A DNA stretch of 64,000 nt, from NCBI RefSeq assembly GCF_014189855.1, contig NZ_BJFN01000007.1, forward strand, positions 124,001-188,000. Reading direction: 5' to 3'. Below the pieces are notes generated by a model that saw nothing but the letters and a program-made list of their open reading frames with translations, had not been told where the DNA came from and searched no databases. Positions within the stretch are counted from its first letter, which is position 1. Every line of letters begins with the position of its first letter. A program made the position numbers and the translations under genes. Positions 6,134 through 8,934 of the stretch are shown here, piece by piece. Origin of the DNA: Buttiauxella sp. A111 (GTDB lineage Bacteria > Pseudomonadota > Gammaproteobacteria > Enterobacterales > Enterobacteriaceae).

Positions 6134-7060
6134 ATGACAATTGCATTAGAACTGGAACAGTTAACGAAAACCTATGCAGGCGGTGTACAGGCACTGCGCG
6201 GCATAGATCTTCGTGTTGAAGCAGGGGACTTTTACGCCCTGCTGGGGCCAAACGGCGCAGGAAAATCCACCACTATCGGTATTATCAGCTCGTTGGTAAA
6301 TAAAACCTCAGGTCGGGTTCGCGTGTTTGGTTACGATCTGCAAAAAGACATTGTTAACGCCAAACGCCAGCTTGGGCTGGTGCCGCAGGAATTTAACTTC
6401 AACCCATTTGAGACGGTGCAACAGATTGTTGTACATCAGGCGGGTTATTACGGCGTTGAACGTAGCGAAGCCATCGCACGTAGCGAAAAATACCTGAAAC
6501 AGCTCGATCTGTGGGAAAAACGCAACGAACGTGCGCGCATGTTGTCCGGTGGCATGAAGCGCCGTTTGATGATTGCCCGTGCCTTGATGCATGAGCCTAA
6601 ATTGTTAATTCTTGATGAACCAACAGCGGGCGTCGACATCGAACTGCGCCGTTCAATGTGGGGCTTCCTGAAGGATCTGAACGACAAAGGCACCACCATT
6701 ATTTTGACCACCCACTATCTTGAAGAAGCAGAGATGCTGTGCCGCAACATCGGTATTATTCAAAATGGCGAGTTAGTCGAAAATACGTCAATGAAATCAT
6801 TACTCTCCAAACTGAAGTCAGAAACTTTTATCCTCGATTTAGCGCCGAAAAGCCCGCTGCCACAGCTTGATGGCTACCAGTATCGCCTGGTGGATACGTC
6901 GACTCTGGAAGTTGAAGTGCTGCGCGAGCAGGGGATAAATAGTGTTTTCAGTCAGTTAAGTTCGCAAGGTGTTCAGGTATTAAGTATGCGTAACAAAGCA
7001 AACCGTCTTGAAGAGCTGTTCGTCACGCTGGTAAACGGGTCAAAAGGAGACCAGGCATGA
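6134..7060 (+). CDS. yadG: ABC-type exporter ATP-binding protein YadG
   Basis: The 308-residue ATPase has Walker A GPNGAGKST (residues 38-46), signature LSGGM (137-141) and Walker B LLILDEP (157-163), followed by the switch region THYLEEAEML. The last 100 residues form the C-terminal extension seen in the ABC-2 exporter group (DrrA-like). Its stop overlaps the yadH start by 4 bp (ATGA), so the two are translationally coupled and form one transporter. The substrate of YadGH is not known. Confidence 0.95.
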   Translation: MTIALELEQLTKTYAGGVQALRGIDLRVEAGDFYALLGPNGAGKSTTIGIISSLVNKTSGRVRVFGYDLQKDIVNAKRQLGLVPQEFNFNPFETVQQIVVHQAGYYGVERSEAIARSEKYLKQLDLWEKRNERARMLSGGMKRRLMIARALMHEPKLLILDEPTAGVDIELRRSMWGFLKDLNDKGTTIILTTHYLEEAEMLCRNIGIIQNGELVENTSMKSLLSKLKSETFILDLAPKSPLPQLDGYQYRLVDTSTLEVEVLREQGINSVFSQLSSQGVQVLSMRNKANRLEELFVTLVNGSKGDQA

Positions 7061-7827
7061 TGCATCTCTATTGGGTGGCGTTAAAAAGTATCTGGACCAA
7101 AGAAATCCATCGTTTCACGCGTATCTGGATTCAAACGCTAGTACCGCCGGTCATCACTATGACCCTGTATTTTATTATTTTCGGTAACTTGATCGGCTCG
7201 CAAATCGGCTCAATGCATGGTTTTACTTACATGCAGTTCATCGTGCCGGGTTTGATCATGATGGCGGTGATCACTAATTCTTATGCCAACGTAGCGTCTT
7301 CATTCTTTAGCGCAAAATTCCAGCGCAACATTGAGGAGTTGCTGGTGGCACCGGTGCCGACCCATATCATTATTGCGGGTTACGTTGGTGGCGGTGTTGC
7401 ACGTGGCTTGTGCGTTGGGGTTATGGTAACTGCCGTTTCGTTGTTCTTCGTGCCATTCCAGGTTCATTCATGGCTCTTTGTCGCATTGACGCTGTTGCTG
7501 ACGGCAATTCTGTTTTCGCTGGCGGGTCTGCTGAACGCGGTGTTTGCCAAAACCTTTGACGACATCAGCCTGATCCCCACTTTTGTGCTGACTCCGCTGA
7601 CCTATTTGGGGGGGGTGTTCTACTCTCTGACGCTGCTGCCGCCGTTCTGGCAGGCGCTGTCCCACTTGAACCCAGTGGTGTATATGATCAGTGGTTTCCG
7701 TTACGGCTTCCTGGGCATCAATGACGTACCGCTGCTGTTCACCATCACGGTACTGGTCGGCTTTATCACCGCATTCTATATTCTGTGCTGGTATTTGATT
7801 CAACGTGGGCGTGGTCTGCGTAGCTAA
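7057..7827 (+). CDS. yadH: ABC-2 type exporter permease YadH
   Basis: The 256-residue inner-membrane protein has about six hydrophobic segments and the ABC-2 permease signature in the segment NPVVYMISGFRYGFLG near the C-terminus. It pairs with YadG, whose reading frame it overlaps by 4 bp. Position 7608-7615 is a run of eight G inside the LGGVF codons. The frame stays open through it, but such a tract could slip. The transported substrate is unknown. Confidence 0.95.
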   Translation: MMHLYWVALKSIWTKEIHRFTRIWIQTLVPPVITMTLYFIIFGNLIGSQIGSMHGFTYMQFIVPGLIMMAVITNSYANVASSFFSAKFQRNIEELLVAPVPTHIIIAGYVGGGVARGLCVGVMVTAVSLFFVPFQVHSWLFVALTLLLTAILFSLAGLLNAVFAKTFDDISLIPTFVLTPLTYLGGVFYSLTLLPPFWQALSHLNPVVYMISGFRYGFLGINDVPLLFTITVLVGFITAFYILCWYLIQRGRGLRS

Positions 7828-8089
7828 TTTTCATAGCCTCCCTGAGAGGCTGTCTCTTAGTCACATCTTTGAGATTAGGATTGGCTGTTTATGTCGGAAG
7901 TGGTGAAAGTTCCGTTCACTCGAAGTCTTCCGCTACATGCAGCCACCGAACCGGTGAACGTCCGAAGGGTGTTCACCGTCACACCCCTCGCTTTCACTCC
8001 ACAATACGATGTTTACATTGCATCGCTTTAGATTTTTCAGCAAAACAAGGTCTGCGTTATCTACCTGAACTTGCCGCGACCCCCTTGTT

Positions 8090-8241
8090 CCCGGCTTAAA
8101 TCGCCACAGTTTTTCCCCTTCAGTCAGGGTTGAGCCGCTGGGAGCGGCGAAAGAGAGCGATCGTCGGGAACGAATCGCGAACGACCCTGAATGTTGGGGG
8201 AAAACTGGGGTTTACCGCTTTAGCGGCGATTTATTGGCCGG
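8090..8241. other. Nested stem-loop domain, possible structured RNA
   Basis: An outer stem pairs 8090-8105 with 8225-8241, including TAAATCGCC (8097-8105) with GGCGATTTA (8225-8233). Inside, 8107-8130 pairs with 8184-8207. Within that, GCCGCT/AGCGGC (8134-8148) and GCGAT/ATCGC make two terminal hairpins. The mismatches leave a long near-continuous stem. This organisation resembles a folded RNA domain more than a protein gene. No known RNA family was recognised. Confidence 0.5.
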
Positions 8242-8252
8242 GCGCCGAGGTC

Positions 8253-8279
8253 GCCAGGAGGATGCGTAATCCTCCTGGC
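8253..8279. repeat. Perfect 11-bp hairpin
   Basis: GCCAGGAGGAT (8253-8263) and ATCCTCCTGGC (8269-8279) are exact inverted copies around the loop GCGTA. It sits just inside the second nested inverted repeat of the 7850-8397 element. No T tract follows, so it is not a standard terminator. Confidence 0.8.
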
Positions 8280-8348
8280 ACGTTCACCGTTCGCAATAGT
8301 GACAGGGATAATCAGCCGCACGGGTGAACGGAAAACCCACGAAGCCAA

Positions 8349-8385
8349 CAGATCTCACCTTGGCAGACGGCCTCAGTGAGATCTG
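8349..8385. repeat. Perfect 10-bp inverted repeat with a shared upstream motif of yadI
   Basis: CAGATCTCAC (8349-8358) and GTGAGATCTG (8376-8385) are exact inverted copies around a 17-nt loop. The 14-mer ATCTCACCTTGGCA within it (8352-8365) recurs exactly at 8460-8473, 30 bp upstream of the yadI start codon. This may be a duplicated protein-binding site or a trace of element movement. Confidence 0.7.
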
Positions 8386-8502
8386 CATAAGCAATAGCCG
8401 AAAGGGGACATAAATTAAGAATTTTCTTACCTGCTATTGATTCGTATCACAGCGCAAAAATCTCACCTTGGCACACTGTCGCCCTGCAAAAAGGAGAATG
8501 CC

Positions 8503-8934
8503 ATGTTAGGTTGGGTGATTGCGGGTCATGACTACTACGCTCAGGATATGCTGGATGCAATTGAGCGTCGTTTTGGGCCTCAGGCTCAATGTTGTTCGGT
8601 GAATTACTGGAAGGGACTGAGCACCAACATGCTGAGTCGTATGATGTGTGATGCGTTGTACAATTGTGATTCGGGTGACGGAGTGGTCTTTTTGACCGAC
8701 CAGGCCGGGGCTGCCCCTTATCGTACTGCGGCATTAATCAGCCACCAACATACCCATTGTGAAGTGATTTCCGGCGTTACGTTACCCGTGTTGTTTGCGA
8801 TGCGTGCGTATCGAACCACGTTGACCAGTGAAGCGTTCCGCGACCATATTGTTGAGCATGGCGGGGGCGACATCACCAGTCTTTGGCATCAGCAACAAAA
8901 AAATCCCCCCTTCGTGTTACTACACCATTATTGA
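8503..8934 (+). CDS. yadI: YadI, PTS EIIA-like protein (mannose/AgaF type)
   Basis: The 143-residue protein begins MLGWVIAGHDYYAQ, with an AAGGAG ribosome site at 8491-8496. It has the EIIA fold signature of the mannose family: an N-terminal strand ending in GH (His9, equivalent to the phosphorylated His), then DGVVFLTDQAGAAPYRTAALI and a conserved tail HQQQKNPPFVLLHHY. Family members carry phosphate from HPr to EIIB. No EIIB, C or D partner genes are nearby, so it is an orphan EIIA domain whose sugar or regulatory role is unknown. Confidence 0.88.
   Translation: MLGWVIAGHDYYAQDMLDAIERRFGPQAQCCSVNYWKGLSTNMLSRMMCDALYNCDSGDGVVFLTDQAGAAPYRTAALISHQHTHCEVISGVTLPVLFAMRAYRTTLTSEAFRDHIVEHGGGDITSLWHQQQKNPPFVLLHHY

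Follow-up and report, generated by a model that had tools for sequence, protein, structure and literature searches.

A gene-less element with Tn5-type ends in the yadH terminator of Buttiauxella sp. A111, probably carrying a TRIP1-type structured RNA domain

In Escherichia coli, the TRIP1 repeats (TRIP1a-e) were reported in 1999 (Rudd, cited in PMC10888264) and are called less well studied in the accessible part of PMC10888264, where they are described as repeats of 146-273 bp for which a double-Y RNA is predicted and which occur in 6454/6725 E. coli genomes. The same part of that source places TRIP1a and TRIP1c exactly at the lysO-aqpZ and dusC/yohI-yohP loci, both of which hold repeats in both directions, and assigns TRIP1b to the putP locus; it treats E. 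coli only, with no mention of CsrA, a transposase, a MITE or covariation. Transposons of the IS50/Tn5 group (IS4 family) have ends of the form CTGTCTCTTA..CACA and duplications of around 9 bp. Bacterial MITEs such as ERIC are short and gene-less, with terminal repeats and a target duplication (PMC10969869, accessible part), and the regulatory RNAs CsrB and CsrC display GGA in hairpin loops. Here we describe an element of Buttiauxella sp. A111 that shares features with each of these systems and that we hold to be probably a MITE moved in trans by a Tn5/IS50-type transposase, with a TRIP1-type structured RNA domain as its cargo.

We analysed a stretch of 64,000 nucleotides (the window), in which the gap between yadH (7057-7827, +) and yadI (8503-8934, +, an open reading frame listed from an earlier TTG) measures 675 bp (7828-8502). 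When the yadI product was searched by tblastn against 80 loci, the same gap was 117-120 bp long in 4/4 loci with Buttiauxella in their title, including one uncultured bin. The yadH proteins are 94-97% identical in four Buttiauxella loci, and YadH shares 97% identity with that of three named Buttiauxella species. Two genomes of the genus (L142, L143) have an empty site, in which the gap holds the intact terminator hairpin of yadH, CCTCCCCGAAAGGGGAGG. This hairpin is the insertion target, and within it the window element occupies positions 7850 to about 8396. Window 7850-8396 is an insertion; its bounds are practically the interval in which the sequence-only reading had reported a structured element, and the element and the long gap are both real. 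The insertion is flanked on the left by the remnant cctgagagg (7841-7849), which falls in the loop region of the yadH terminator hairpin as it stood before the insertion, and on the right by gccgaaagg (8397-8405), as judged by comparison with the two empty sites and, on the right, with a same-species locus (L219). The two copies agree at 6/9 positions, so the target duplication of the window has decayed.

In that same-species locus (G060:C1:4329501-4329999), the yadH-yadI position is taken by a family member facing the other way. Its flank is 98% identical to that of the window copy (105 bp) whereas the element is only ~80-85% identical, and the flipped copy may reflect an inversion, a replacement or a second insertion. 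A 26-nt direct repeat returned by the repeat search (8343-8368/8451-8476) looks like a chance similarity with the yadI leader.

Searched by blastn, the element matched its own genome 34 times, spread over about 14 places. The other genomes of the genus matched in 10/10 cases, and in 9/10 the element itself was among the matches listed, the sole listed match of G006 being the yadI flank. This was the search that the sequence-only reading had proposed, with multiple copies and empty sites as the signs of mobility, and both were found. There was no match in the plasmid and phage collections or in an E. coli collection (at 1e-5), searches from which records near the own genome were possibly excluded.

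The copies end in sequences of the types CTGTCTCTTAGTCACATCT and AGTTGTGTATAAGAGACAG. From 93 loci given to a survey of ends and duplications, we obtained 34 distinct elements with both ends recognised plus flanks, 29 of the window family (26 in the genus, 3 in g89) and 5 of a 157-bp element. The two-ended family members span 257-731 bp, plus one 170-bp case (L197). A target duplication of 8-11 bp with at most one mismatch was found for 13/29 family members (16/34 overall), compared with 41/1122 (3.7%) among randomly mismatched flank pairs; it was exact in 9/29 (12/34 overall), and no recognisable duplication was present in 16/29. At 23/34 junctions the element lies between the C/T-rich and the G/A-rich arm of a hairpin (shuffles: mean 0.07, maximum 1), and the rejoined sites had a mean inverted-repeat score of 3.0 versus 0.5. 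The loop of a terminator-type hairpin is a preferred kind of target for this element family.

The longest open frames inside the 29 elements range from 23 to 163 aa and differ from copy to copy, with a chance-like frame above 140 aa in 3/29. Only two open frames in the window element reach 60 aa (76 and 65 aa); they have TTG starts and nothing supports them as genes, as the first reading of the gap had also concluded. The family has terminal inverted repeats, target duplications and empty sites, is present in many copies and contains no transposase gene, that is, it has the features by which MITEs are recognised. The suggestion of a non-autonomous transposon is therefore borne out by the roughly 14 places in the genome, the Tn5-type ends, the empty sites and the duplications around sister copies. 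A 155-157-bp MITE with the same Tn5-type ends and an unlike interior was observed in g102 (L252, L253, L271) and g13 (L261, L269, L260), and its 157-bp copies in g102 sit in the same C/T-rich hairpin targets. The window element is short and gene-less like this element and like ERIC, with terminal repeats and a target duplication, but its interior is unlike theirs, the cargo here being a large conserved multi-branched domain.

Full-length copies of the family are inverted twins, in the order outer left arm, minus-strand domain, spacer, plus-strand domain and outer right arm. The window copy opens with the left terminal inverted repeat CTGTCTCTTAGTCACATCT (7850-7868, +; G000:C7:131850-131868), which is exact to the end pattern CTGTCTCTTANWCACAWCT and had been recognised in the sequence-only reading as a transposon-like left end. 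The repeat belongs to an outer left arm with GTTCACC/GGTGAAC hairpins (7850-7988) that matches other copies, e.g. L009, L012, L016 and L020. Directly 3' of this arm stands the central spacer (7985-8085), whereas in L009 the outer left arm is followed by an inverted domain and only then by the spacer and right arm as in the window; by this comparison the window copy is without its left inner domain. The remaining right domain (8087-8245, +) is in sense with yadH. It comprises a three-way junction, two GGGA-loop hairpins and a side hairpin CCGC/GCGG, as defined by the covariance model (CM R1) and covariation, and scores 172.2 bits against that model, to whose training set the copy belongs.

Downstream of the domain lies a perfect 11-bp hairpin, GCCAGGAGGAT/ATCCTCCTGGC (8253-8279, +), and a hairpin stands at the equivalent place after the domain in K-12 TRIP1a, L315 and L333-L335. 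It is followed by a module GTTCACCG ... CGGGTGAACGGAA (8282-8333, +) whose 3' part pairs with the left arm; a GTTCACC...GGTGAACGGAA module is also found 3' of the domain in L333 and L335 (g3), and in L334 (g98) it reads GTGAACGGAA. A subterminal hairpin CAGATCTCAC...GTGAGATCTG (8349-8385, +) has arms of 10 bp (8349-8358 and 8376-8385) and similar stretches in sister copies. The copy closes with a decayed right terminal inverted repeat, CTGCATAAGCAATA (8383-8396, -), where intact copies end in ...TATAAGAGACAG. The sequence-only reading had described two perfect hairpins, and had also claimed at least four nested inverted-repeat pairs and largely complementary arms. At default settings the repeat search returned a single inverted pair (7910-7922/8321-8333, 12/13 complementary), and the wider claim is supported by folding: 7840-8420 folds at -239.1 kcal/mol on the plus strand (z -8.8) and at -237.4 kcal/mol on the minus strand (z -7.5), and 0/100 dinucleotide shuffles fold as well on either strand.

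Each arm of the twin carries the ~158-nt fold (window 8087-8245, +). For its analysis, 145 profile hits were reduced to 108 of at least 140 nt and then to 104 distinct copies, all of which were aligned. Over these 104 copies, 93.4% of the cells of 53 pairs are paired. Changes on both sides were found in 26/53 pairs compared with 22.6 in shuffles (3/500 as high), and the covariation score was 0.325 versus 0.140 in shuffles (0/500 as high) and at most 0.080 with slid partners; the number of further pair types was not above shuffles (476/500 as high; 104 copies). These counts are to be read with the structure having been drawn from the same alignment and with related copies inflating them. RNAalifold gave -60.0 kcal/mol on the domain strand versus -33.6 on the opposite strand. 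In 94 distinct rows, mostly remote and including g89 and g95, 87.9% of the cells were paired and 49/53 pairs had changes on both sides, in an alignment that was fitted to the model and whose counts lean to it by construction. De novo folding of 80 remote copies (99 matches minus three g89 loci, N-containing, shorter than 140 nt and duplicate copies = 86, minus g95) returned the three-way junction and the side hairpin, with the outer stem incomplete. The large structured RNA offered by the sequence-only reading thus has its counterpart in an RNA-like domain inside the element. Dispersed copies, empty sites and double-sided changes are at odds with ordinary intergenic DNA, for which that reading had expected presence at this junction only and no compensatory change.

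The covariance model, run with a short calibration and with at most 7 candidates scored per genome, found the domain, with an E limit of 0.001, in 88/392 genomes of the family, covering 38/154 genera. As negative controls, 80 named yadH loci had no match better than E 0.7, and a sample of the order had matches at 1e-4 in 13/394 genomes, all 13 within the element's own family; the share of other families among the remaining genomes is not listed. Scores fell from 180-172 bits (best of g1 and g89) through 140-106 (most g95 arms) and 75-73 (g98 and g3) to ~48 in K-12. Among 66 loci, 25 have two outward-facing domains, 4 have domains facing the same way only, 37 have a single domain and 0 are inward-only, some of them being cut by contig ends. 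In one of the g95 genomes (G105), two twin-armed elements stand in tandem about 840 bp apart (L306:1501-2740).

For the two K-12 matches, the model, whose training set was of the window's type, gave 47.8 and 47.3 bits. One stands in the lysO (ybjE)-aqpZ gap and the other in the dusC (yohI)-yohP gap, both in sequence unannotated in RefSeq; these are the loci of TRIP1a and TRIP1c. Intermediates bridge the distance at 73-140 bits. By blastn, a TRIP1-type locus from another genus (L315) matched in 5375/5426 E. coli genomes at a median of 4 places, the best listed match covering 57% of the query. The window element itself was without a match when the E. coli collection was searched by blastn, and its link to TRIP1 is through the structure model and the intermediates; judged by these, the window domain is kin to TRIP1, with a homologous branched fold. 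Besides the fold, the two share an intergenic position downstream of genes, a G+C-rich hairpin after the domain and the occurrence of both orientations at one locus (here, window versus G060). They differ in that no Tn5-like end was found within 450 bp of the two K-12 copies, whereas complete Buttiauxella-type members are twin-armed, with Tn5-type ends and target duplications. RSA repeats, our first suspicion for an E. coli homologue, were dropped, as TRIP1 fits by locus.

At gathering score, neither the element nor five loci holding relatives of it matched Rfam 15, and at a relaxed threshold only three chance-level matches appeared. The window's only Rfam family at gathering score is t44 RNA (RF00127; 44448-44535, +; 89.9 bits). 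The description of the element as undescribed was half right, the fold being kin to the published TRIP1.

Outside the genus, both Tn5-type ends were found in g89 (L254, L351, L352), and a single end in g95 (L305 and L307, 2 of three loci) and in g98 (L308), so that packaging between Tn5-type ends comprises both ends in two genera and single ends in two more. Among 56 loci outside the window's type, an end-like 12-mer (at most 2 mismatches) was near the domain in 3, and it was exact only in L308. The ends being this rare around the domain, the fold is not bound up with this transposase and extends beyond its transposon packaging. The simplest history would be that a TRIP1-like unit was captured between Tn5-type ends.

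An end-pattern search over 392 genomes of the family gave matches in 14. One of these genomes (G392, g162) holds an autonomous 1494-bp IS (L257 ~1501-2994) whose 19-bp left end is identical to that of the window element; its right end, CTGTCTTTCCTACACAAAT, is less alike. The IS encodes a Tn5-type transposase (NF033590, 3.5e-157; PF14706; PDB 1mus, 6.5e-88). A repeat of ~9 bp borders it on either side, each end having an N next to it, and the open frame in which it lies looks primase-like. The end-pattern matches of G033 (120) and G176 (42) were set aside, those listed being mostly at contig ends or in tandem; exact CTGTCTCTTATACACATCT stands at contig ends of these two genomes, in some cases in tandem, and presumably represents unremoved Nextera library adapter.

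The transposase of this IS (P0001) had 6 matches in G392, the positive control, 6 in G194 and 2 weak ones in G112, and none in 12/12 genomes of the window's genus. The same 12 genomes had no match to the NF033590 profile, whose control matched below the cut-off in 3/14, and none to an IS50 protein query run without a positive control; a PF02281 scan of the genus was empty, but its control was likewise without any match and the scan is not counted as evidence. PF01609 gave 17 matches in 7/12 genomes of the genus, and every 16-mer at these 17 loci differed from the end pattern at 4 or more positions. With no match to P0001 in 12/12 genomes of the genus, the putative mover is recognised by way of another genus, and the Buttiauxella elements look like orphans of a Tn5-type transposase. 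An autonomous partner is not required by most definitions of a MITE, and partners are often lost. The likeness to the IS50/Tn5 group lies in the ends, in the duplications around 9 bp and in the Tn5-type transposase encoded by the IS with the identical left end; the window element differs in containing no transposase, and what is common to both is the end sequence only.

One alternative is that the element is a foldback MITE and nothing more, in which the hairpins serve transposition at the DNA level, as cruciforms or as binding sites for transposase or a host factor, and have no function as RNA. Palindrome-correcting mutation in DNA, acting during replication, could give paired changes similar to those described above. 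The whole element is an inverted repeat of which both strands fold well, the domain is on the minus strand in one arm and on the plus strand in the other, and both orientations occur at one site, all of which would suit such an element. Against this, the fold occurs across 38 of the 154 genera, mostly without these ends where they were looked for, and two features of the pairing lean towards RNA. In helices predicted on both strands, G.T cells outnumber A.C cells by 12:2 in the window's type and by 29:11 in the remote set, and a preference for G.U over A.C mismatches favours RNA, although this strand test is only suggestive because helices predicted on one strand each lean to their own strand. 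A tandem G.A/A.G replaces two Watson-Crick pairs of hairpin P3 in 37/104 copies (A1 columns 50-51/67-68), an RNA-like exchange that also favours RNA. Palindrome correction would, moreover, leave near-invariant GGA loops unexplained. We regard the pure foldback reading as possible and rather unlikely.

In copies of the window's type, GGA is present in the loop of P2 in 104/104 and in that of P3 in 102/104. The terminal loops could be GNRA-like tetraloops, lending stability to the fold or forming tertiary contacts, with the domain acting as a stabiliser of transcript ends like other extragenic palindromes. GGGA is formally a GNRA loop, and the insertions sit in terminator-type hairpins, as would suit this role; TGGA and AGGA loop variants, which are not GNRA, also occur, however, and the constant part is GGA itself. 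This role, too, appears improbable, if conceivable.

The domain could instead be a dispersed CsrA-binding RNA, its GGA hairpins titrating CsrA or recruiting it to the host transcript. The preferred binding site of CsrA reads RUACARGGAUGU and presents its GGA in the loop of a hairpin (PMC7652899 and PMC5694010, accessible parts). The motif CANGGANG is an ANGGAN hexaloop closed by C-G, of the CsrA/RsmE type; among the TRIP1-type remote copies, 70/80 have at least one and 38/80 have two, compared with 6.5 expected from mononucleotide shuffles, which keep neither dinucleotides nor pairing, and on the opposite strand it occurs in 0/80. K-12 TRIP1a reads TTACAGGGATGT, which by our own count agrees with the CsrA consensus at 11/12 positions. 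On the other side, the loops of the window's type are mostly CNGGA, with CANGGANG in only 11/104, hairpins of very high stability may bind CsrA poorly according to the accessible part of PMC7652899, and aqpZ and putP are absent from the accessible main text of an E. coli CsrA CLIP-seq paper (PMC5694010). The resemblance to CsrB and CsrC is in the GGA-bearing hairpin loops; here each domain has two of them, their context in the window's type differs from ANGGA, and the transcript is a predicted one. We consider it unlikely that the element is a dispersed CsrA-binding RNA, and regard CsrA as a lead, a candidate partner suggested by the loop motif.

An omega-RNA or HEARO guide left without its nuclease, as the sequence-only reading had proposed, would fit a structured RNA-like domain inside a transposon, but Rfam returned no match at gathering score, the Tn5 (IS4) type is seen in the ends and duplications as well as in the related transposase, and the copies contain no long open frame, their longest frames differing from one another, which makes such a guide extremely improbable.

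Taking the element as a MITE with a TRIP1-type RNA domain as cargo, which we hold to be the probable reading, a Tn5/IS50-type (IS4 family) transposase acting in trans would move the gene-less element and would have pasted it, with a duplication of ~9 bp, into the terminator of yadH, within the loop of the hairpin. In full-length copies the two domains point away from the centre; the window copy has kept only the right one. As this domain is in sense with yadH, a read-through yadH transcript would carry the branched RNA with its two GGA-loop hairpins. The folded RNA may be kept by selection, most likely through binding of a protein, for which CsrA is the leading candidate, and the bound protein would protect or regulate the transcript.

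Titles and abstracts of the literature on Buttiauxella MITEs include none about this element, a search for MITEs with the IS4 family in enterobacteria found nothing, and the matches listed for repeats, palindromes and CsrA hold nothing on it. Each component is of a known kind; what appears new, within the literature searched, is the way they are combined, together with the family-wide fold and the GGA loops. TRIP1 and the window element might further form one Enterobacteriaceae-wide class of GGA-loop RNA, Tn5-packaged in at least two genera, that seeds terminator hairpins and spreads CsrA-type protein-binding modules onto host 3' ends, a view that we put forward as speculative and, taken whole, quite unlikely.

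For TRIP1, the present findings add a family across 38 sampled genera and a covariation-supported fold that is absent from Rfam 15, in which the near-invariant GGA loops point to a testable protein partner. In Buttiauxella the domain also has a transposon as its vehicle, whose ends, targets and empty sites are all clear. If the wider view is true, a transposon would be seeding CsrA-type RNA modules at the 3' ends of host transcripts.
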